64,000 nucleotides of DNA from NCBI GenBank assembly GCA_011620595.1, contig WOYX01000004.1, positions 61,800 through 125,799 of the forward strand. Reading direction: 5' to 3'. The stretch is from Bacteroidales bacterium. Lineage in GTDB: Bacteria > Bacteroidota > Bacteroidia > Bacteroidales > VadinHA17. Shown here in pieces: positions 4 through 30,219 of this stretch. The notes beneath the pieces are model-generated. The model did no database searches and was not told where the DNA came from. It was given only the letters and a program-made list of their open reading frames with translations. The translations under genes and the position numbers were made by a program. Position 1 is the stretch's first letter, and each line of letters opens with the position of its first letter.

Positions 4-71
4 GTCAGATCTTGAGCCTAAGCAGCATTAGGCTGAATTGCCGGGATCAGATCTTGAGCGTAAGCAGCATC
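4..71. repeat. Imperfect 25-bp direct repeat at the cdaA 3' end
   Basis: Positions about 4-28 and 46-70 carry the same 25-bp segment with two differences, 42 bp apart. The inner copy encodes the last residues of CdaA and its stop codon. The outer copy repeats the same end, MLLRLKI-stop, outside the gene. This looks like a short duplication of the gene end or an inserted repeat unit; the window edge prevents seeing more copies. Confidence 0.55.
15..34. terminator. Hairpin downstream of cdaA
   Basis: A 7-bp perfect stem, AGCCTAA and TTAGGCT, flanks the loop GCAGCA just beyond the cdaA stop codon. There is no clear T-run, so it may be a weak terminator or part of the imperfect direct repeat that covers positions 4-71. 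Confidence 0.3.
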
Positions 72-20203: not shown

Positions 20204-21103
20204 ATGACGACTATTCTGTCGCCGTTTTCGCTAAAAATCCTGTCAGGATTCGAACCGCAGTTTCAGTCCCTGGTTTCGACATGGATCAACCTGATGATTG
20301 CAGTTGTACTGGTCTGTTTCCTTGTGAGTGAGATTACAAGAAACTACAGCCAGGTTGACAAGCTCCGGAGCCTGATGCCGCCGGCATATGCATGGATTAC
20401 GGTTATGGCCTATCCGTCACCCAGGCTATTTCTGATGGCCTCTCTGGTGACAGTCTGGGGTATAAGGCTTAGTTTCAATTTTTACCGTAAAGGAGGTTAC
20501 AGCATAATCCCCTGGCAGGGAGAGGAGGATTACCGCTGGAAGATACTGAAAGACACCAGCGCCCTCAGAGGAAGGTTCAGGTTCGGACTCTTCAATCTTC
20601 TCTTTATATCATTCTATCAGAACCTGCTCATCCTTCTCTTCTCCACCCCCCTGCTGATGGCGGCACTTTACCAGGGTGTACCGATGGGTGTTACTGACCT
20701 GGTTGCCTCAACGCTTATGCTTCTGTTCATAGTTACCGAAACCATAGCAGACAACCAGCAGTACAGTTTCCAGACTGTGAAACGCAGCCCGGCGGAAAAG
20801 GAAAATGAGAAACGGTACGGTGAATCACTCAACAAGGGCTTTCTTACGGAAGGGCTGTGGAAGTATGTCCGACATCCCAACTTTGCCTCCGAGCAGGCAA
20901 TTTGGATAAGCTTCTATCTCTTCAGCGTGGCCGCCTCGGGCAGATGGATCAACATCACCCTGTCTGGTCCGGTGCTGCTGGTGATTCTCTTTATCGGGAG
21001 CTCAATAATGACGGAAAATATAAGCAGCAGCAAATACCCGGATTACACCATATACCAGAAAGAGGTACCCAAATTCATTCCCCGGATCATCAGGCGGAAG
21101 TAA
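20204..21103 (+). CDS. DUF1295/steroid 5-alpha-reductase-like membrane protein
   Basis: A 299-residue integral membrane protein with about seven helices, for example residues 27-43, 76-92 and 129-150. The C-terminal [17 protein letters not shown] motif is typical of the DUF1295 and 5-alpha-reductase/ICMT-like superfamily, whose members bind NADPH or SAM in this region. The specific reaction is unknown. Its stop codon overlaps the end of convergent acr3 by 14 bases. A near-match to the -7 box (CATCTTTG) lies about 20 bases before the start. Confidence 0.8.
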
Positions 21104-22151
21104 GGTCTGGTTTGAAATACCTCGTCTTCATCCTGAGCGCTACGTTGACCAGAGCGATCATCACCGGCACTTCAATCAGCGGCCCGATCACTGCAGCAAA
21201 AGCTTCGCCTGAATTGATGCCAAACACAGCAATGGCAACCGCTATCGCCAGTTCAAAGTTGTTGCTGGCGGCAGTAAAAGAGAGGGTCGCGGTCTGTTCA
21301 TAATTTGCCCCCGCCCTCCGGCTGATGAAGAATGAGACAAAAAACATCACAACAAAATAAATCACCAGCGGAATGGCTATCCTCACAACATCAAGTGGTA
21401 TCTTGACTATATACTCACCTTTTAGCGAGAACATTACAAAAATGGTAAAGAGCAATGCGATCAGTGTGAGAGGACTGATCTTCGGTATGAACTTCGTGTG
21501 ATACCACTCCTTACTTTTTACGCGTATTAAAATGAACCTTGTCAGGAAACCTGCAATGAAGGGTATCCCGAGGTAAATAAATACACTCTCGGCAATTTGC
21601 GCTATGGTGATCTGTTCAACCGCATCATTCACCGGCAGTCCGAACCAGCCCGGAAGGACAGCAATAAAGAAATAGGCATAGACAGAGAAGAAGAGCACCT
21701 GGAAAATCGAGTTAAATGCCACCAGGCCGGCGGAGTACTGGGTATCGCCCTTTGCCAGGTCGTTCCAGACAATCACCATGGCTATGCACCTCGCCAGACC
21801 AATGAGTATAAGGCCATACATATAGTCAATGTTGAACCTGAGGAACAGGATGGCCAGAAAGAACATGAGAACGGGCCCTATTATCCAGTTCTGTACAAGT
21901 GACAGCCCGAGCACGCGGGTGTTCCTGAATACATCCGGCAACTCCTCGTACTTTACCTTAGCCAGAGGCGGGTACATCATAACTATCAGGCCTATCGCAA
22001 TCGGGATATTGGTCGTTCCGCTGGAGAGACTGTTCCAGAAAACGGCTATCTCCGGGCTGATCCAGCCGATGACAACACCGGCAAGCATTGCAAGGATAAT
22101 CCACAGTGTGAGATACCGGTCAAGCAGTTTGAGACGCTTCCTTGAAGGCAT
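21090..22151 (-). CDS. acr3: Acr3-type arsenite efflux permease
   Basis: Extrudes arsenite across the inner membrane using the proton gradient. The 353-residue protein has about ten helices and shows the Acr3 signature [19 protein letters not shown] with the cysteine essential in studied homologues, plus the early [10 protein letters not shown] and LVQNWIIGP segments. It is the last gene of a minus-strand unit: rhodanese-like, arsC, arsM, acr3. The 117-base gap to arsM holds four GATTTGC heptamers. It overlaps the convergent DUF1295 gene by 14 bases. Confidence 0.94.
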
Positions 22152-22157
22152 AATCAG

Positions 22158-22185
22158 GATTTGCGATTTGCGATTTGCGATTTGC
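22158..22185. repeat. Tandem heptamer array (GATTTGC)x4
   Basis: Four perfect copies of GATTTGC followed by the degenerate GAATTTTG, placed between arsM and acr3. The same unit recurs at 32089-32123 and, inverted, at 32283-32303. Confidence 0.9.
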
Positions 22186-22268
22186 GAATTTTGTTTCGGT
22201 CAATTTATTTCAGGCACTGTTATTATGTATCAGTTTTCCGGCTTTTTGGCTGCAGAACTATTCATTAT

Positions 22269-23048
22269 TCAGGGTTTGATGGCTGATACAGTTATGCTAA
22301 ATACACCATTGCCTTCTTTATCTTCTGCCTGATCAAGAACATTGTCCGGCAACTCAATTTTCTTTTGCTTGTGAATGGTGATATCTGAAAAGCCGCTGTG
22401 CCGGATGAATCCAAGATACTCTTCCATGGCAGAGGCACCGGAAACGCAGCCGGCATATAGCTCTACGTCAGAGCGTGCCTTTTCTGAAAGGATACCCTTT
22501 ACCACCACATCTGAGATGCAGAAATGGCCACTGCTTTTCAGTACCCTGAAGATCTCGCTGAACGCTTTTTCCTTGTCAGGCACGAGATTCAGCACACAGT
22601 TTGAAAGGACAACATCATACCTGTTGTCCTCAAGGGGCATCTCTTCTATGTCACCCCTGATGAATTCAACATTGTTGTAGCCCAGTTTCTTCCTGTTATC
22701 TTCAGCTTTCCGGAGCATTGATTCAGTAAAATCGAGTCCGGTCACATGACCTGCATCACCGGTCAAAGACCTGGCAACAAAGCAGTCGTTTCCGGCACCG
22801 CAACCGAGATCAAGAACATGGTCACCCGGACGGATATTCGCATAATCAACCGGCACACCGCAGCCGAGGCTCAGGTCAGCATCAGGCACATACCCGTCAA
22901 GATGATCATAACTTTCATTAAAGGTATTGATACCCTCTGATGAGCAACAACCGGGCTTGCAGCAGCAGGAGCCGGATGCGAACTTGTCAGAGGATGCTAT
23001 TTTTCCGTACTTCTCCTGTACGATAAGTTTCAGTTCTGAGGGATTCAT
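22269..23048 (-). CDS. arsM: Arsenite S-adenosylmethionine methyltransferase
   Basis: Methylates As(III) to mono- and further methylated arsenicals with SAM in the cytoplasm. The 259-residue protein has the SAM motif VLDLGCGAGNDCF (about 78-90). Three cysteines stand where arsenite is bound in characterised ArsM: C63 (SLGCG), C151 (SNCVLNLV) and C201 (YAGCVSGA). An additional CCCKPGCC cluster (28-35) is typical of many bacterial ArsM. Its start overlaps the arsC stop by 4 bases (ATGA), indicating translational coupling. Confidence 0.95.
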   Translation of the reverse strand: MNPSELKLIVQEKYGKIASSDKFASGSCCCKPGCCSSEGINTFNESYDHLDGYVPDADLSLGCGVPVDYANIRPGDHVLDLGCGAGNDCFVARSLTGDAGHVTGLDFTESMLRKAEDNRKKLGYNNVEFIRGDIEEMPLEDNRYDVVLSNCVLNLVPDKEKAFSEIFRVLKSSGHFCISDVVVKGILSEKARSDVELYAGCVSGASAMEEYLGFIRHSGFSDITIHKQKKIELPDNVLDQAEDKEGNGVFSITVSAIKP

Positions 23049-23470
23049 GATTGTTCCTTAATGTTATGGTTGTAAAACTCCAGAAATGTCTCGCGAATCA
23101 GGTCGCGAATCCTTATGTACTCTCCGTGAATGAACTCAGGCGTGCCTGTGGCATTTGAGGGATCCTCGAACCCAAGATGGAGCCGCTGCTTCACTCTGCC
23201 GAAAAACGCCGGACATGTCTCATTGGCGTCATCACAGACTGTGATAACATAATCCCACTCCTCATCCAGGTATTCATCAACATTGTGAGGTGTATGGTGG
23301 CTTATATCAATCCCCAAATCAGCCATGACCTCCACGGCTTTGGGATTGATATGTGGAGCAGGCTCAGTACCGCCTGACCTCACATAAAGCGTTTCGTCAA
23401 ACGACTGCAGGAAGCCGTGAGCCATCTGGCTGCGGCAGCTGTTTCCCGTGCAAAGAATAAGTATTTTCAT
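23045..23470 (-). CDS. arsC: Arsenate reductase, low-molecular-weight phosphatase type
   Basis: Reduces arsenate to arsenite using a cysteine relay regenerated by thioredoxin. The 141-residue protein begins with the P-loop CTGNSCR (Cys7-X5-Arg13). The two further relay cysteines are at about 79 and 86 in VITVCDDANETC, and the general acid is in FEDPSNATG. The ATG at 23470 is preferred over an in-frame GTG three codons upstream. It feeds arsenite to the co-transcribed arsM and acr3. Confidence 0.94.
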   Translation of the reverse strand: MKILILCTGNSCRSQMAHGFLQSFDETLYVRSGGTEPAPHINPKAVEVMADLGIDISHHTPHNVDEYLDEEWDYVITVCDDANETCPAFFGRVKQRLHLGFEDPSNATGTPEFIHGEYIRIRDLIRETFLEFYNHNIKEQS

Positions 23471-23506
23471 ATTTTTCACTTTTGCCTGTTTCCTATTGCC
23501 TTATGT

Positions 23507-23541
23507 GACTGCCGACTGTGGACTGCAGACTGACGACTCCG
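23507..23541. repeat. Tandem heptamer array GACTGNN x5
   Basis: Five consecutive heptamers, GACTGCC, GACTGTG, GACTGCA, GACTGAC and GACTCCG, in the gap between the rhodanese-like gene and arsC. A reverse-oriented relative lies at 32246-32266. Confidence 0.8.
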
Positions 23542-23623
23542 GTATTGCCTTCACTGCAATCCGGTTCCCTCGCTAAATTGACCCACCGGGTCATTTTCAT
23601 ACGCCTGGCCCTCTACTGCCTCA

Positions 23624-24040
23624 TTACCCCTTATTCCTTGGCCTCAACTGGCAAACGCACGATCCGCTCAGTTGCTCAGTGATGTCTATTTTCAGCGGTA
23701 AACCGTCCTGCTCCCACGCCACTATCCCTCCGGCAAGATTAGCAATATTCGCAAATCCCTTTGCCAGGAGAAACTCCATGACCTCGTGGCTTCTCAATCC
23801 AACTGAGTCGGCAATGATAAGCGGCTGTTCGCGCGACAGATCAACATAATCCTTTTCGATTCTGCTCTTAGGTAAATGGAGCAATCGGGGAACATCAAAA
23901 TTCTTGTAGCCTGTCAGCCTCTCTTCCCTGACATCCAAAATCACTGCACCGCCCTCGGTGGCTTCGGCATAAGCTTCACGCGGAGTGAGATTCAGGAACC
24001 CGCCGCTGCAGAATCCCCTGTTATGATACAATTCAGACAT
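23624..24040 (-). CDS. Rhodanese-like protein without the catalytic cysteine
   Basis: A 138-residue single-domain rhodanese fold: AVILDVREE (about 32-40), HLPKSRI, the active-loop region LIIADSVGLRSHEV (74-87) and the C-terminal NLAGGIVAWEQDGLPL. The loop position normally held by the nucleophilic Cys is Asp78 (codon GAC), so sulfurtransfer is unlikely. The tail CVCQLRPRNKG adds a Cys-x-Cys pair that might bind metal or arsenite; this is inference. It is the first gene of the arsC-arsM-acr3 unit, downstream of an ArsR-type operator. Confidence 0.85.
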   Translation of the reverse strand: MSELYHNRGFCSGGFLNLTPREAYAEATEGGAVILDVREERLTGYKNFDVPRLLHLPKSRIEKDYVDLSREQPLIIADSVGLRSHEVMEFLLAKGFANIANLAGGIVAWEQDGLPLKIDITEQLSGSCVCQLRPRNKG

Positions 24041-24097
24041 AGCCCCTTACTAAGGATATTAGTTTTGTACCGGACTGTTTCTTGCAGTTTCAGCATT

Positions 24098-24105
24098 CAA
24101 ATATA
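24098..24105 (-). promoter_or_regulatory. -7 element of the rhodanese-arsC-arsM-acr3 operon
   Basis: On the minus strand TATATTTG, a perfect TAnnTTTG. The adjacent palindrome at 24109-24128 occupies the spacer and the -33 region, so a bound repressor would block polymerase. Confidence 0.6.
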
Positions 24106-24108
24106 ATC

Positions 24109-24128
24109 ATTTCGTTAATTTACGAAAT
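24109..24128. promoter_or_regulatory. Candidate ArsR operator 1
   Basis: ATTTCG-TTAATTTA-CGAAAT, a 6+8+6 palindrome in front of the acr3-containing operon. The same half-sites and spacing occur at three other arsenic-island promoters (28413, 29867, 30228). Confidence 0.75.
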
Positions 24129-24235
24129 AGAACATGATAATTTTTCATAATTACAACAATCCGGGATACATAAAAATTTCAAGCTATGAAGCCCGGATGA
24201 ACATCACAGTTACCAGTGCCAAAGCGGATCAATGT

Positions 24236-24339
24236 CAGAAGTTCTTTTTGAAGTCGTCCATCTTGTCCGCCATATAGATGATAGTGATGAATATGACAGC
24301 TGCAACAGCGGCAATTATCCAGTTACTTGTACTCCAGGT
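24236..24339 (-). pseudogene. Possible remnant of a small membrane protein
   Basis: The minus strand encodes a 34-codon stretch with a clear membrane helix, SNWIIAAVAAVIFITIIYM, and a polar end MADKMDDFKKNF before a stop at 24236. There is no start codon upstream in frame; a stop precedes it. A second short frame directly upstream (VRLQEHLAGLG...NLEYK) could be the missing N-terminus shifted in frame. Apart from this, the 387-base gap 24041-24427 holds only the operon promoter and operator 1. Low certainty. Confidence 0.3.
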
Positions 24340-24427
24340 TCACCGCTTGCTGGTTCAGTATCTGCCGGCCTAAACCAGCCAGATGTTCCTGTAACCTCAC
24401 TTTTTTATTGACCTGATAATCAGCAAA

Positions 24428-25138
24428 TCAGTTCTTTATTTCAAGCTTGTAACCGAGTGTAGGGATCGTAACAATCCGCACCGAGGGATCACCTTTAAGA
24501 TAGCCCCGCAATTTGGATATAAATACGTCAAGACTTCGGCCTGTATAGTAATCAGCTTCGCCCCATACATCAATCATTATCTCTTCACGGGTAACAATAT
24601 TATTAACGGAAGTGGCAAGTTTACCGAGTATTCTGCTCTCCTTTATGGTCATTCTCTGTGAATTGCCGCCTTGCATCAGACTGAGATTCCCGGGATCAAA
24701 CGAAAACCGGCCGATATTGATGATCTCAGCTTCATCAGGTGACTCAGTTACGGACCTGTTCGTTCTTCCTAGCACGGCCCTGATCCTGTAGAGTAGCTCT
24801 TCCTCGTCGAATGGCTTGGTTATGTAGTCATCCACCCCGAGGCGAAACCCGGTGATCTTGTCTTCCTTGAGAGAGCGTGCAGAGATAATTATCACCGGAA
24901 TCCTGCTGTCAAGCTCCTTAATCCTGGCCGTCAGCGTAAATCCATCCATGCCGGGAAGCATAATATCAATCAGGCAGAAGTCAGCCCCGACTCTTGTGAA
25001 TCCCTGCAGCGCTGACTGACCATCGCGGTACAGTTTAACCTCAAACCCGTTTGACTCAAGGAAATCGACCAGCAAAAAACCCAGGTTGAGATCATCCTCA
25101 ACAAGCAGTATTCTTGTATGTTTATAATTTTCCGTCAT
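24428..25138 (-). CDS. OmpR/PhoB-family response regulator
   Basis: A 236-residue regulator. The receiver domain (residues 8-120) has acidic residues VEDD, the phosphoacceptor Asp in CLIDIMLPGMDGF and the Lys in DDYITKPFDEEE. The winged-helix DNA-binding domain (about 140-234) ends with RSLDVFISKLRGYLKGDP and TLGYKLEI. It overlaps the upstream kinase gene by 17 bases, so both are one unit. A cluster of phased direct repeats upstream of the neighbouring Cys-rich gene is its most likely target. Confidence 0.93.
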   Translation of the reverse strand: MTENYKHTRILLVEDDLNLGFLLVDFLESNGFEVKLYRDGQSALQGFTRVGADFCLIDIMLPGMDGFTLTARIKELDSRIPVIIISARSLKEDKITGFRLGVDDYITKPFDEEELLYRIRAVLGRTNRSVTESPDEAEIINIGRFSFDPGNLSLMQGGNSQRMTIKESRILGKLATSVNNIVTREEIMIDVWGEADYYTGRSLDVFISKLRGYLKGDPSVRIVTIPTLGYKLEIKN

Positions 25139-26393
25139 TTTTGGCAGCCAGAGGAAGTTCGAGGGTCACCGTCAGGCCTCCCTCCTTCCTGTTCACGATT
25201 CTGATGTTGCCTCTCATTCCTGAAATTATACCCCGAACCTGATATAGTCCCAGGCCAAAGCCGTCAACACTGTGTATATTTCCTTCAGGTACACGAAAAT
25301 ACTTCTCAAATACTTTTTCCCTGTATTCCTTTGTTATGCCTGGACCGTTGTCCTCAATTACAATGTGAAGCTTCTGGTCCCCTGAGGTCAGCCTGATTAA
25401 TATTTCAGGTCGCTGACCTGAATACTTGACTGCATTGTCAATCAGGTTCCCGAGGGCAATATGAAACAGGTCAGTATTGCCTGTAACCGTGAACCTGTCT
25501 CCTGCTCTCTCAATAGCTATCTTCCCTCCCTTCTGTTCAACCTGCACTCTGAACGTTTCTGCAATATCTTCCACAGCCGCGCCGGCATCTATCTCCTCCG
25601 CGGGCAACGATCTGTCAATGTCGGCAAAATCGGTTTTAAGCAACTTCTCAACTTTCTCATTCAGTTTGCTCTGCTCGGTTTTGATTACATTGGTGTAAAA
25701 CGACAGTTTTTCATCGTTTTCCACTTTCTCGCTTTTAGAAAGCATGCTGTTTGCGAGAGATATGTTGGTCAGCGGGGTTTTAAACTCATGAGTAACATTA
25801 TTTACGAAATCCACAATGCTCTCCGACAAGAACCTCTCCCGCCTGTAATAGTTATATATTATTATGAATGAAATGGATATTAAAAACAGAAGCAACATTG
25901 AAAAGATAAAGATATCACCCATCTGGGCAAGAATGAAATCACGTTTCTCGGGAAATCTCAAACTGAGTTTATATCCTGATTTTTCAAGCATCTCTTCCAG
26001 GCCATTGCTGAGATAAGTGTTCTTCGTCCGGGTTATTTTTGCAGCCTGATCTGCTCCTACAATATCAAATTCAAAATCAAGTCCTATACCGTAGAAATTA
26101 AGGTCCTGCCTTATCATTGACTGAATGTCGGCCCACTCTTCCCTGGTTTTCATTACCAGCATGCAGGACTCGTACCGTCCCTCTCTCAGACAATTGTTTA
26201 CCTCACTGCAAATTTCCTCGTTTCTCGTAAGATTCTCCACGATTCTGTTCATGGCCATTTCAACGCTGTGGCTAAACTGGGCCTCCTGCACACGTGCTGC
26301 CTTCAGAATCCAGGAGAACTGGATGCCGGTAAGAGCTAACAGAGCTCCGAAGGCCATTATCAGAATTGTGAGCTGTATTCCTGATTTTTTCAT
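25122..26393 (-). CDS. Membrane sensor histidine kinase
   Basis: A 423-residue kinase. It has a first membrane helix (about 8-28), a periplasmic sensor of about 140 residues with two cysteines close together (EEICSEVNNCL and SCM), a second helix (about 170-190), then HisKA with the phosphoacceptor in NNVTHEFKTPLTNISLAN and an HATPase domain (N-box LGNLIDNAVKYS, G1 EDNGPGI, G2 GFGLGLYQV). The periplasmic cysteines, and its place inside an arsenic island facing a Cys-rich secreted protein, suggest a metal(loid)- or thiol-responsive sensor. That is inference. Confidence 0.92.
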   Translation of the reverse strand: MKKSGIQLTILIMAFGALLALTGIQFSWILKAARVQEAQFSHSVEMAMNRIVENLTRNEEICSEVNNCLREGRYESCMLVMKTREEWADIQSMIRQDLNFYGIGLDFEFDIVGADQAAKITRTKNTYLSNGLEEMLEKSGYKLSLRFPEKRDFILAQMGDIFIFSMLLLFLISISFIIIYNYYRRERFLSESIVDFVNNVTHEFKTPLTNISLANSMLSKSEKVENDEKLSFYTNVIKTEQSKLNEKVEKLLKTDFADIDRSLPAEEIDAGAAVEDIAETFRVQVEQKGGKIAIERAGDRFTVTGNTDLFHIALGNLIDNAVKYSGQRPEILIRLTSGDQKLHIVIEDNGPGITKEYREKVFEKYFRVPEGNIHSVDGFGLGLYQVRGIISGMRGNIRIVNRKEGGLTVTLELPLAAKNDGKL

Positions 26394-26432
26394 CAGTTCA
26401 AAAATACAGAGTTTTAATAATGTGTGTCAAGA

Positions 26433-26480
26433 TTTAACATCGATATAACACGATTTAACAACGGTATAACCTGTTTAAAA
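26433..26480 (+). promoter_or_regulatory. Phased direct repeats, candidate response-regulator binding site
   Basis: Five direct repeats of the form (T/A)TTAACA: TTTAACA 26433, TATAACA 26444, TTTAACA 26454, TATAACC 26465 and TTTAAAA 26474. Spacing is 11, 10, 11 and 9 bases, one helical turn each, as in PhoB/OmpR boxes. They end just before the -7 element of the Cys-rich gene and lie between it and the kinase gene. Confidence 0.65.
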
Positions 26481-26491
26481 AACTGTCTGGT

Positions 26492-26499
26492 TAATTTTG
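26492..26499 (+). promoter_or_regulatory. -7 element TAATTTTG of the Cys-rich gene
   Basis: A perfect TAnnTTTG match 25 bases before the ATG at 26524. It supports that start over the upstream in-frame ATG at 26497, which lies within the promoter. Confidence 0.6.
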
Positions 26500-26523
26500 A
26501 CACAAACAAAAACTCTTATGGTT

Positions 26524-26874
26524 ATGAAAAAGGTCATCCTTGGAATTTCAGCTCTTGTTATTCTGTCATTTGTTATGATAACAGCGGTCAATGCGCAGAA
26601 TGATCAGAAGAAGGAAAAGAAGGCTAAGACAGAAGCCGTTAAAGACTGTTCAAAATGTCCCTCGGCTGCCACCTGCGGCATAGCGGCCGGAGAGGCTCCG
26701 GTACCCGGTTCACAGGCAAACCATGCAGCTGCCAGCTGTGATCCCGCAAAATGTGATCCCGCAAAATGCAAGGATGGAAAATGCGATCCTGCCTGCAAAG
26801 CCAACTGCACGAAAGCCGGTCCTGATGCTGGGTGCACACCGGCAAAATGCCCTGCCGGCGCTGGGAAAAAATAA
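26524..26874 (+). CDS. Cys-rich exported protein, candidate metal(loid) binder
   Basis: A 116-residue protein. A Sec signal peptide (MKKVILGISALVILSFVMI...VNA) is followed by a Lys-rich linker and then a domain with 11 cysteines, many in a repeated Cys-Asp-Pro-Ala-Lys-Cys pattern (CDPAKCDPAKC, CKDGKCDPACKANC, CTPAKC). There are no aromatic residues in the Cys-rich part. The composition is metallothionein-like and it would sit in the periplasm. It is divergent from the two-component genes inside the arsenic island and ends at a strong terminator. Binding of arsenite or another thiophilic metal is inferred, not shown. Confidence 0.85.
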   Translation: MKKVILGISALVILSFVMITAVNAQNDQKKEKKAKTEAVKDCSKCPSAATCGIAAGEAPVPGSQANHAAASCDPAKCDPAKCKDGKCDPACKANCTKAGPDAGCTPAKCPAGAGKK

Positions 26875-26911
26875 GCTTCAGAGCCCATCCCGGCAGTATA
26901 CCATTCGCATT

Positions 26912-26957
26912 ACAACCAGGTCACGCCATCTTCGCTAACAGATCGTGACCTGGTTGT
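26912..26957. terminator. Strong (bidirectional) terminator
   Basis: A 14-bp perfect inverted repeat (ACAACCAGGTCACG / CGTGACCTGGTTGT) with an 18-base loop, followed on the plus strand by TTTTCTTC. It ends the Cys-rich gene; on the minus strand it overlaps the end of the truncated thioredoxin-like frame. Confidence 0.8.
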
Positions 26958-27039
26958 TTTCTTCAAGCACTTCCCTTACAGGTTTCTTGAGCCTGACGCA
27001 GTTTGTGCATCCGGAGTCTGGTACTTTTATATCAAGCAT
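26935..27039 (-). pseudogene. Truncated thioredoxin-like gene
   Basis: A 34-codon frame 11 bases after the permease stop: MLDIKVPDSGCTNCVRLKK followed by a helix and ending NNQVTIC-stop. It matches the first 40% of small thioredoxin/glutaredoxin-like proteins such as the 77-residue one at 29615 (CPKC there, CTNC here). The rest of the fold is replaced by the terminator hairpin. In other genomes a full-length protein of this type follows such permeases, so this is probably a decayed partner. A functional CxxC peptide cannot be excluded. Confidence 0.65.
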
Positions 27040-27050
27040 AGTAAATCATT

Positions 27051-28394
27051 TTAGAAGATTGATCCATATATAAGTCCTGATATTGTTGCCATGACAACCA
27101 CAAGGCTGACATATACTGCAGTCTTTTGATTTCCAATAATACCTCGTATAACCAGCATATTGGGCAGCGAGAGCGAAGGTCCTGCCAGCAGAAGAGCCAG
27201 GGCTGGACCTTTACCCATTCCTGAGGCTATCAGCCCCTGCAGAATAGGTACCTCAGTCAATGTGGCAAAATACATGAACGCCCCCACTATAGAAGCAAAG
27301 AAATTTGAGAACACGGAGTTGCCACCTACCAGCTTTGCGATCCATTCACTGGGGATGATGCCGGGAATAGACTGACCGTCATGAGTTGAACCAAGCAGAA
27401 AACCGGCAATCACGACCCCGATTCCAAGAAGAGGAAGAATCTGCTTGGCGAATCCCCAGGTTGAGAGGGTCCATTCCCGGTTCTCATCGTCCTGCTTATC
27501 AAGAAGTGTAATTACGCTGAGCGCGGCTATTCCGACAATCATCGGGACCAGTGGCCGGAGCTTGTCACTTTCAATCAGTGAATTCGACAAGAATACCGAT
27601 ATCACAGTCACAACTGCGGCGGCCAATACCCACTGCCATTTAATTTTAAGGATCTTAATTAGTGACCCTGCAAGCACCAGGCTGAAAAATCCCGTTATGT
27701 ACCATTTGTATGAATAGATATAGTACCAGGCACTTGATGTATCATTTGCAGCCGGGCTACCCCAGTTGGCAAAAACAAGTATCAGCACCAGTGTAAAGAA
27801 ATGAGTCATCGTCTGCCACATAGGCCTCTTTTCCTTCTCAACCATAACGTTCATCTGGTCTACTCTCTTCTGCTGCTCTTCCTTACGGTAAAAAAGTGAC
27901 ATTAAAAGCCCTATCACAACACTGAAAACCACCGCGCCAATGATCCGGGCAACGCCCATCTCAAAGCCCAATATTCGGGCTGTCAGAATGATTGCCAGTA
28001 TATTGATTGCCGGACCCGAATAGAGGAAAGCAATTGCCGGGCCGAGGCCTGCGCCTCGCTTATGAATGCTTGAGAAGAGCGGCAGGATGGTGCAGGAGCA
28101 AACCGCCAGAATGGTGCCCGAGACGGCAGCAACGGAGTATGCCAGCCATTTCTTTGCGTTGGCACCGAAATATTTTATCACCGACCCCTGGCTGACAAAG
28201 ACCGATATAACACCGGCAATAAAAAATGCCGGCAGAAGACAAAGGATCACGTGCTCCCTGGCATACCACTTTACCAGATCAAAAGTCGCCGCAATCGCAG
28301 TGTTGAAACGGACGCTTTCAATCGGCATGAAAAACGCGAACACAAATACCACAATGATCCACAGAAGGATCTTCAGCTCTTTCTTCAGTTCCAT
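27051..28394 (-). CDS. ArsP-type permease (UPF0718/DUF318 family)
   Basis: A 447-residue membrane protein with about ten helices. The family motif VCSCTILPLFSSI lies near residue 100 and YSGPAINILAIILTARI follows. The second half repeats the pattern (FATLTEVPILQGL, LLAGPSLSLPN). Characterised ArsP members export trivalent organoarsenicals such as methylarsenite, and the vicinal cysteines are shared. Its place next to arsEFG and arsR, with its own copy of the arsenic operator, supports a role in organoarsenical export; other family members have unknown substrates. Confidence 0.85.
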   Translation of the reverse strand: MELKKELKILLWIIVVFVFAFFMPIESVRFNTAIAATFDLVKWYAREHVILCLLPAFFIAGVISVFVSQGSVIKYFGANAKKWLAYSVAAVSGTILAVCSCTILPLFSSIHKRGAGLGPAIAFLYSGPAINILAIILTARILGFEMGVARIIGAVVFSVVIGLLMSLFYRKEEQQKRVDQMNVMVEKEKRPMWQTMTHFFTLVLILVFANWGSPAANDTSSAWYYIYSYKWYITGFFSLVLAGSLIKILKIKWQWVLAAAVVTVISVFLSNSLIESDKLRPLVPMIVGIAALSVITLLDKQDDENREWTLSTWGFAKQILPLLGIGVVIAGFLLGSTHDGQSIPGIIPSEWIAKLVGGNSVFSNFFASIVGAFMYFATLTEVPILQGLIASGMGKGPALALLLAGPSLSLPNMLVIRGIIGNQKTAVYVSLVVVMATISGLIYGSIF

Positions 28395-28412
28395 TTTTAT
28401 TTAATGATTATC

Positions 28413-28432
28413 ATTTCGCAAAAACCCGAAAT
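28413..28432. promoter_or_regulatory. Candidate ArsR operator 2
   Basis: ATTTCG-CAAAAACC-CGAAAT, ending 19 bases before the permease start codon. Half-sites and 8-base spacer are identical in form to the other three sites. Confidence 0.7.
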
Positions 28433-28448
28433 GCACAAATAATTTTTT

Positions 28449-29150
28449 TTAAATCAAGGCAATTATAATATAATAGATCCCCACTCCGATGAAGAGTACT
28501 GCCACCACCCTCCTGAACCATATCTCAAAGGTTTTGATCCGGCTGTACATTTTGCCGACACTGCTTACCGCATAAGCCAATAACCATGCAAAGATAATTA
28601 CAGGAATTCCGGTGGCCAGGGCAAAAATCAGGGGCAGATAGAGTCCGCCAGCACTGGCCACGGTAATTGGTATCAGCATTACGAAGTACAAAACTCCGCT
28701 GTACGGGCAGAAGGCCATTGCAAACAGAATTCCAAGCAACAGCGTATTCAGATAACTCTTTCTGCCCCTCTCTCCAATCTTCTCAGTGATCGAGCTCATG
28801 CCGCCCGGAAGCTTGAATTTGATTATGTCGAGCATAAAGAGTCCTATCAGAATTAAAATCGGTCCCAGCAGTTTTTCTCCCCATTTCTGGAACCAGCCGG
28901 AAATATCCATCTGGCTGGCGCCAAAGAAAATGATCAGTGCAATGCCTACATATGTAATTGCCCTTCCGAGAGTATAAACAAGTCCATTGAGAAATACCCT
29001 TCTCCTGTCAGTGAGATCACGGCTGATAAAGCCTATTGCCGAAATATTCGTTGCCAGAGGGCATGGGCTGATGGCAGTCATCAGCCCCAGAATAGCTGCT
29101 GTTAAAAAGGTATACTGAGAGTTCTCAAGTATCTTCTGAAGAAGCTCCAT
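28449..29150 (-). CDS. arsG: ArsG-family efflux permease (DsbD-like)
   Basis: A 233-residue membrane protein with six or seven helices of the CcdA/DsbD fold and one cysteine in each half (AISPCPLATN, Cys30; AMAFCPYSG, near 150), as in electron-transporting relatives. Family knowledge: ArsG works with ArsE and ArsF in extrusion of aromatic arsenicals such as aminophenyl-arsenicals. Its ATG overlaps the arsF stop (1 base) and arsE lies just upstream, reproducing the arsEFG order. Confidence 0.85.
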   Translation of the reverse strand: MELLQKILENSQYTFLTAAILGLMTAISPCPLATNISAIGFISRDLTDRRRVFLNGLVYTLGRAITYVGIALIIFFGASQMDISGWFQKWGEKLLGPILILIGLFMLDIIKFKLPGGMSSITEKIGERGRKSYLNTLLLGILFAMAFCPYSGVLYFVMLIPITVASAGGLYLPLIFALATGIPVIIFAWLLAYAVSSVGKMYSRIKTFEIWFRRVVAVLFIGVGIYYIIIALI

Positions 29151-29602
29151 CAGTTATCTGTCAACGCCTTAAGCAACGGATCAACCGTCTTCCTGATCTC
29201 TTCCTTAAGTTTCTCCGGGCTGTTGCGCACATTCATGAAACCTTCGCTTGTAAGGTCAATCACGGTATCGCCGCTGACAACCAGCAAACACTGACCCGTG
29301 GCATTGACGCGTTTGGCGTCAGCTTCAGATGACTTATCTTCAATGTTAAGCGTCCTGAAAACAACAGTTCCTTTCTCTGTCTCAACAGGGTATAATTCCT
29401 TAACGGCATCCCTGGCAACATTCTCAACGGCCTGGCAGGTTACGCAGCGACGGGTCAGGTGAAAATAGATTACCTCCACCTTATCCTTTGAAAATCCATC
29501 AGCTTCTTCTGCCACAGAGGGATTTCCTTCACTGAAAGCAAAAATCGCAATGGCTGCCGCAGCTATCGCAACAACAGCCAGAACCGGTAACAGCTTCTTC
29601 AT
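29150..29602 (-). CDS. arsF: ArsF-family thioredoxin-like protein
   Basis: A 150-residue protein with an N-terminal signal or anchor helix (about 4-22) and an exported thioredoxin-like domain with Cys53-Val-Thr-Cys56 in LTRRCVTCQAV, and a third cysteine in NATGQCLLVV. Databases name this family as the ArsF subunit of a nitrophenyl-compound nitroreductase. The sequence itself shows a thiol-redox domain and no flavin-binding motif. It overlaps arsG and follows arsE by 12 bases. Confidence 0.82.
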   Translation of the reverse strand: MKKLLPVLAVVAIAAAAIAIFAFSEGNPSVAEEADGFSKDKVEVIYFHLTRRCVTCQAVENVARDAVKELYPVETEKGTVVFRTLNIEDKSSEADAKRVNATGQCLLVVSGDTVIDLTSEGFMNVRNSPEKLKEEIRKTVDPLLKALTDN

Positions 29603-29614
29603 ATCCGTACAGTT

Positions 29615-29848
29615 TTATTTGGTAAACAGTCGTTTTAATTCCTCTGCCGACGGGACCCGTCCCTTCAGAACAACCTTTTCATCGACTACAAGCGCCGGAG
29701 TTGTCATCACACCGTAGTTCATAATGTCCACGATATCCTCTACCTTGGTGACCGTGGCATCTATACCGTTCTGCTCAACAACCTCACGGGTCAGTTTCTC
29801 CAGGGTTTTGCATTTGGGGCACCCTGGCCCCAGGATTTTAATTTCCAT
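29615..29848 (-). CDS. Small thioredoxin/glutaredoxin-like protein (ArsE-like position)
   Basis: A 77-residue cytoplasmic redox protein of the MTH895/TM0996 type with active site GPGCPKCKTL (Cys10-Pro-Lys-Cys13) and cis-proline in MTTPALVV. It precedes arsF and arsG in one unit, so it probably passes electrons to or from them, or to ArsC. It stands where arsE is expected; equating it with ArsE is inference from order. A shortened relative lies at 26935. Confidence 0.85.
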   Translation of the reverse strand: MEIKILGPGCPKCKTLEKLTREVVEQNGIDATVTKVEDIVDIMNYGVMTTPALVVDEKVVLKGRVPSAEELKRLFTK

Positions 29849-29866
29849 ATCTTTTATTCTCCCTTC

Positions 29867-29886
29867 ATTTCGTAAAACGTCGAAAT
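29867..29886. promoter_or_regulatory. Candidate ArsR operator 3
   Basis: ATTTCG-TAAAACGT-CGAAAT in the 53-base gap between arsR and the arsE-like gene, ending 19 bases before the latter's start. Confidence 0.72.
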
Positions 29887-29901
29887 ACTATATTAAATTT
29901 T

Positions 29902-30219
29902 TTATCGCTTGAAAAATTTATTCAGTAACAATTTTGCCTCGTCCCAATTCTCTCGATTGATGCAGTATTTAATATAGGGAGGATTGATCTCTCCCTGTAT
30001 CAGCCCCGCCTTCTTTAGCTCCTTAAGATGTTCTGACAGGGTTGAGCGGGCTATGGGCAGTTCCTCCGCCATATCTCCGCTGTAACAGCATTTGTCGAGA
30101 TTGTTTGCCAGAAAATCCATTACGAATACCCGCACCGGGTGAGAGAGGGCCTTGGCATACCTCGCCAGCTTCTCCTGATCATCTGAATAATATTTTTTCC
30201 TGGCCGGCTTTGCTTCCAT
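29902..30219 (-). CDS. arsR: ArsR/SmtB-family repressor
   Basis: A 105-residue winged-helix repressor that leaves DNA when bound to arsenite. The helix-turn-helix is ELPIARSTLSEHLKELKKAGLI (from about residue 54). The vicinal Cys44-Cys45 in DKCCYSGDM and a further Cys in YCINREN provide a likely As(III) site. It is the first gene of arsR-arsEFG and carries operator 4 over its own start site, so it is probably autoregulated and controls the four ATTTCG-N8-CGAAAT sites. Confidence 0.93.
   Translation of the reverse strand: MEAKPARKKYYSDDQEKLARYAKALSHPVRVFVMDFLANNLDKCCYSGDMAEELPIARSTLSEHLKELKKAGLIQGEINPPYIKYCINRENWDEAKLLLNKFFKR

Follow-up and report, generated by a model that had tools for sequence, protein, structure and literature searches.

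A TAAC direct-repeat array as a putative bidirectional operator of an RprY-like two-component system and a divergent exported Cys-rich protein in Bacteroidia

The boxes of the regulators PhoB, PhoP and KdpE are tandem direct repeats of 6–7 bp that lie one helical turn apart, and regulators of this OmpR/PhoB type occupy such repeats head to tail (PMC4832192, PMC3264566). For example, the PhoP protein of M. tuberculosis binds tandem 7-bp motifs with a 4-bp spacer (PMC4832192), and the half-sites of KdpE are likewise bound as a tandem repeat (PMC3264566). In the cpxRA–cpxP system of Escherichia coli and its relatives, an OmpR-type two-component operon is accompanied by a divergent gene for a small exported protein, which is strongly induced and damps its own kinase (PMC6737893). 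A further point of reference is the RprXY system of Bacteroides and its relatives; in Porphyromonas, the regulator RprY binds to its own promoter (PMC3646045). A literature search, outside which subscription papers mostly fell, returned no published TAAC box for Bacteroidia regulators.

We analyzed a stretch of 64,000 nucleotides from a Bacteroidales genome (hereafter the window), in which a kinase–regulator pair is separated from a divergent gene for an exported Cys-rich protein by a gap of 130 bp (26394–26523), running from the kinase start at 26393 on the minus strand to the ATG of the Cys-rich gene at 26524 on the plus strand. A sequence-only reading had placed in this gap five phased heptamers that end just before a perfect −7 box, had likened them to OmpR/PhoB boxes, and had predicted the Cys-rich gene to be the regulator's main target. 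The position of the array between these genes and the heptamer starts at 26433, 26444, 26454, 26465 and 26474 were borne out. Repeats 1 (TTTAACA, 26433–26439), 2 (TATAACA, 26444–26450), 3 (TTTAACA, 26454–26460) and 4 (TATAACC, 26465–26471), all read on the plus strand, follow one another at steps of 11, 10 and 11 bp, and each contains a TAAC core (26435–26438, 26446–26449, 26456–26459 and 26467–26470, respectively) that is invariant in nine orthologs. The claim of a fifth repeat did not hold: the plus-strand heptamer TTTAAAA (26474–26480), which starts 9 bp further on, is unconserved, with no constant sequence in the genus, and probably lies outside the operator there. The repeats resemble TTAACA, the PhoP box of Bacillus subtilis.

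The sensor histidine kinase (423 aa; 25122–26393, minus strand) combines HisKA and HATPase_c domains with a two-TM sensor, its two hydrophobic segments being judged by eye to span the membrane. The sensor carries three cysteines, C62, C68 and C77; the first eight sequences all retain the latter two, and many members of the wider set have a C-x5-C pair. A sequence search with the sensor recovered no match, and its AlphaFold model, a weak query with a mean pLDDT of 68, matched no PDB fold at E 0.001. The response regulator (236 aa; 24428–25138, minus strand) contains receiver (PF00072) and winged-helix Trans_reg_C (PF00486) domains, both above their gathering scores, and has RegX3 as a solved relative (5e-40). 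Its recognition-helix segment GRSLDVFISKLR is essentially invariant, with the family pattern GRS(L/F)DVFI(S/T/A)KLR. These domains place it in the OmpR/PhoB family and, together with the helix segment, lend support to the box geometry that had been proposed; tandem direct-repeat half-sites 10–11 bp apart, as expected for this family, are present at its candidate target promoters. Its best NCBIfam match is RprY, at 221.6 bits, well below the equivalog cut-off of 370 bits, and we refer to it as RprY-like. The third gene codes for an exported Lys/Cys-rich protein (116 aa with 11 Cys; 26524–26874, plus strand) with a signal peptide as judged by eye; we took its start as the ATG at 26524, the reading frame from 26497 being a longer TTG-start version. 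This protein had no Pfam match at E 0.001 and no NCBIfam match above cut-off. Hence, it was assigned neither to the CpxP/Spy/ZraP families, with which it has no curated Pfam or NCBIfam match, nor to a known metallothionein-like family, for which no match exceeded the cut-off.

In the Bacteroidia, the sigma-A element TAnnTTTG occupies positions −12 to −5 (PMC9723704), and candidate boxes of this form are present on both sides of the array. The perfect −7 box already reported for the Cys-rich gene, TAATTTTG (26492–26499, plus strand), was recovered, with 25 bp between the start of the last TAAC and that of the box. To this we add a second one facing the kinase gene, TATTTTTG (CAAAAATA on the plus strand; 26399–26406, minus strand), which lies 28 bp from the first TAAC. 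Given the −12 to −5 placement, the transcript of the Cys-rich gene is predicted to start at about 26504, with a leader of about 20 nt, and that of the kinase 1 nt before its ATG. The distance from the kinase −7 box to the ATG is 5 nt in all seven genus orthologs and 4–7 nt in most others of the order; therefore, we predict a nearly leaderless kinase mRNA, a class that makes up only 5.5% of the mapped mRNAs of Flavobacterium psychrophilum (PMC9723704). Repeat 4 lies over the stretch where a −33 element of the Cys-rich promoter would be expected, and the left end of the array is next to the corresponding region of the kinase promoter. The −33 position is used by activators that replace this element and equally by repressors.

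The close kinase orthologs number nine: seven belong to the genus, the eighth to a different genus of the family and the ninth to a different family. All nine are preceded by four TAAC cores at steps of 11, 10 and 11 bp and by a divergent gene for a Cys-containing exported protein. Across 12 genomes of the genus, the 38-bp candidate operator (≤3 mismatches) occurs once per genome in eight and nowhere else in those. A strong match to the Cys-rich gene is found in exactly the same eight genomes; the other four have neither, and these genus-mates without array and module keep other kinase systems together with the arrays of those systems. The search of relatives that the sequence-only reading had called for thus recovered the repeats wherever the regulator and the Cys-rich gene are both conserved. 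In one genome (G014), the operator and the Cys gene lie at a contig end with no close kinase match seen, and in another genome (G018) only a kinase fragment was found, also at a contig end. In a search for further targets, the 38-bp operator had no second site even when as many as 3 mismatches were allowed; an 18-bp version with two repeats matched at many scattered places with up to 2 mismatches, and we therefore claim no second target.

Homologs throughout the order and class were collected with a profile of the sensor region. At least three cores were found at 32 of the 41 strong kinase homologs (16/21 in the order and 16/20 in the class) as against 0/14 of the weaker ones, with the cut between strong and weak chosen after the list was seen. 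Some strong homologs have only a core pair (L056, L059, L063, L064, L106, L110 and L124), and two (L066 and L113) have no cores by the automatic start call, a procedure that misses some sites: the G554 locus, arrayless as L113, has a core pair in L164. Among the weaker homologs, L069–L072 and L075 retain two cores spaced by 11 bp, with an unchanged distance to the kinase −7 box. The usual steps are 11-10-11 within the order and 11-11-11 elsewhere in the class, four loci have six cores (11-10-11-10-11), and all triple arrays in 230 kb of sequence (20 neighborhoods) adjoin this module.

The distances to the two promoters proved to be strikingly constant. Where at least three cores are present (41 loci), the distance from the start of the last TAAC to TAnnTTTG is 25 bp in 11 loci and 26 bp in 24, this element being almost absent at other offsets, and CAAAnnTA, i.e., the kinase box read on the other strand, ends 27–29 bp before the first TAAC in 33 of them. 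After removal of redundancy, the TAnnTTTG of the divergent gene lies at 25–26 bp in 28 of 34 loci, where 0.03 were expected, the kinase box lies 27–29 bp from the first TAAC in 26/34, and both registers are present in 22/34. When the count was anchored on the kinase box alone, without selecting for arrays, 116 TAACs fell at the four predicted registers versus 18 elsewhere (≤150 bp, 32 loci). Outside the cores, the gap of the window is just 34–54% identical to those of other loci of the order that keep the cores. An operator shared by two promoters explains such rigid registers in a diverged gap, and drift does not.

The divergent product has an apparent signal peptide or lipobox in the 34 loci, as judged by eye and not by a signal-peptide program, and most of these proteins are small and Lys-rich with at least three cysteines, some displaying a C-D-P-x-x-C motif. 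In some members of the class, the divergent partner is not Cys-rich. Such exceptions include L112 and L115, where it is a small, monoheme cytochrome-like lipoprotein containing a single CxxCH heme motif, and L117 and L119–L121, where it is a large exported protein. In L076, L077, L080 and L081, the product of the gene after the Cys-rich gene begins like a membrane protein and, with the sequence ADFEAYCPFGGIQA, looks like a NapH/FixG-type 4Fe-4S protein. A natural experiment is provided by the insertion of a small gene between the kinase and the Cys-rich gene in G232 (L085, 5440–6120). Here, each of the separated promoters has its own TAAC array—the Cys-rich gene a full four-core version, TTTTAACATCGCGTTAACACGAATTAACGTCCAAATAAC, and the kinase a version with two intact cores and a decayed third, TTTTAACATCACATTAACACGATTTAAATACG.

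As the exact distances to both promoters are kept across the class, the repeats are very probably the landing site of the regulator. We hold with good confidence that they constitute a bidirectional OmpR/PhoB-type operator of the RprY-like regulator, serving both the kinase–regulator genes and the gene for the exported protein. The earlier view of the Cys-rich gene as the regulator's target is thereby supported by conservation, with the amendment that the kinase–regulator pair's own promoter would also be served. We infer that the cognate regulator binds the array, in favor of which count its appropriate DNA-binding domain and essentially invariant helix segment. Mechanistically, two dimers of the phosphorylated regulator would sit in tandem on the same face of the helix, each on one pair of TAAC half-sites, with the last half-site on the right over the −33 region of the Cys-rich promoter and the left array end beside that of the kinase promoter. 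The regulator would most likely activate both sides, resulting in positive autoregulation of the kinase–regulator pair and induction of the exported protein; here, activation over repression is our guess by analogy to cpxRA–cpxP. The envelope role of the exported protein is also a guess: it might bind metals or thiol-reactive stressors or, like CpxP, damp the kinase.

Related arrangements recur elsewhere in the window's genome, as indicated by pattern searches of genomes, from which all the genome-wide counts derive. The triple pattern TAAC-6/7-TAAC-6/7-TAAC has five occurrences, of which three immediately precede kinase genes, and the half-composite CAAAnnTA-27..29-TAAC-6..7-TAAC has four (contigs C5, C30, C44 and C56), immediately preceding four different kinase genes; at least half of the geometry is displayed by three paralogous kinases of this genome. 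In 149 genomes of the class, the half-composite gave 227 matches compared to 126 for a reversed control, and 14 of 34 sampled sites were upstream of a kinase gene. It was not enriched outside the class within the same phylum (~29 versus 67 in the control, counted by hand), and the triple TAAC alone is unspecific in AT-rich genomes, with controls being as frequent. Since half-composite matches stand before kinase genes, the cassette is probably a general two-component device of the class, though C44 has only a core pair.

Among the individual systems, genes for RprX-like kinases of 516–519 aa feature TTTTAACTTTTTGTTAACCRGTTTTAACCTCACTTTAACC (11-10-11) with −7 boxes on both sides, namely in L197 (G000:C30, 14951–15022), L011, L016, L019, L023, L025 and L027; at these loci, a divergent gene for an exported protein is not obvious. 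In a third kinase system (L196, G000:C56, 73838–73950), 28 bp separate the −7 box of the kinase (453 aa) from TAAC repeats; the divergent gene codes for an exported Lys/Glu-rich protein and has TAATTTTA at the 26-bp register. L195 (G000:C44, 85769–85817) contains a fourth kinase, of 516 aa, which starts just beside a half-composite with only two TAAC cores. Triple TAACs are also found upstream of genes for a MoxR-like ATPase and an ABC-transporter ATPase (G000:C22:79536 and G000:C41:16665; L098 and L101), and near-identical sequences recur in genus relatives.

Several other explanations of the array may be weighed against these data. The gap is 72% AT, a composition in which repeats could arise by chance, but a chain of four TAACs at 10/11-bp steps appeared in 0/20,000 dinucleotide shuffles of the gap (the longest, of three, was reached in 8/20,000), the array is the sole chain of at least three at such steps in the 64-kb window, and its registers are conserved class-wide; we accordingly regard chance as having a negligible probability. 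The arrays of paralogous kinases in the same genome that lack an obvious divergent exported gene raise the alternative that the array is a true operator of the kinase–regulator operon only, with the Cys-rich gene as a bystander. This is very improbable given that the kinase and the Cys gene co-occur, that the divergent-gene box holds its register in 28/34 loci, and that the separated Cys gene of L085 retains its own four-core array.

The same-register TAAC cores before other kinase operons of the genome also mean that a paralogous regulator could bind; an RprY ortholog or paralog would then own the array, and the adjoining kinase pair would be its target. The array, however, tracks the module, and genus-mates without both keep their other kinase systems with arrays. 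Moreover, the spacers are system-specific, with ATCG/ACGA here versus TTTTTG/CCRGT at the 519-aa kinase, making a foreign owner improbable. A different question is the sign of regulation: by occupying the −33 region, the regulator may repress one promoter or both, as suggested by the overlap of repeat 4 with the expected −33 place and by the proposal of RprY as a repressor of some genes (PMC3646045). Yet, the geometry fits activators replacing the −35 element equally well, and no −33 motif was seen under repeat 4; we see repression as a somewhat unlikely option. Our preferred reading remains a bidirectional operator of the adjoining regulator, with activation on both sides preferred by analogy with Cpx.

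Genes for ACR3, ArsM, ArsC and rhodanese, and for ArsP, a DsbD-like protein, thioredoxin and ArsR, lie on both flanks of the module in the window (21090–30219). In the five genus relatives whose flanks are long, the module is always followed by arsC, arsM and ACR3, and in four of them by the rhodanese gene as well, with the arsP–dsbD–trx–arsR group on the other side in three, as in the window. These constant neighbors therefore link the module to arsenic resistance in the genus. Outside the genus, arsenic genes adjoin the module in 0/20 loci, and G021, in which close copies of arsM and arsP are adjacent, has no close kinase or Cys-rich match. On this evidence, arsenic cannot be the ancestral signal of the module, and metal stress as an inducing signal is a guess.

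More broadly, we cautiously favor the view that the TAAC operator, ~28 bp from the kinase −7 box and 25–26 bp from that of the divergent partner, is a general, ancient Bacteroidia promoter cassette for two-component systems. Several paralogous systems per genome would reuse it, and in the order the kinase mRNA would be nearly leaderless. Its commonest carrier here would be an unnamed three-gene envelope-sensing module comprising a Cys-bearing sensor, an RprY-like regulator and a small Cys/Lys-rich exported protein. If true, the operators of many uncharacterized two-component systems of the Bacteroidia could be read from sequence by going from the kinase start to a −7 box 4–12 nt before it and thence to TAAC repeats 28 bp further. 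This would furnish a testable target and partner gene for regulators with no assigned function and define a widespread, unnamed envelope-sensing module.

In its architecture, with a kinase–regulator operon, a divergent exported protein and a shared candidate operator, the locus resembles CpxRA–CpxP. However, the exported protein here is Cys/Lys-rich with no family match, damping of the kinase is an analogy, the kinase precedes the regulator, and the array is shared at a fixed register between promoters of the Bacteroidia −7 type. RprXY is close in that RprY is the best NCBIfam match of the regulator and in that the kinase–regulator order is the same as in the 519-aa kinase system of the genome, which has the same 11-10-11 array. 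In contrast, the regulator studied here scores 221.6 bits against the RprY cut-off of 370, the sensor domain of its kinase is shorter and different, and the genome contains the RprX-like system as an operon of its own. Finally, compared to the boxes of PhoB, PhoP and KdpE, the repeats described here are distinguished by a TAAC core and by the placement of four half-sites between two promoters.
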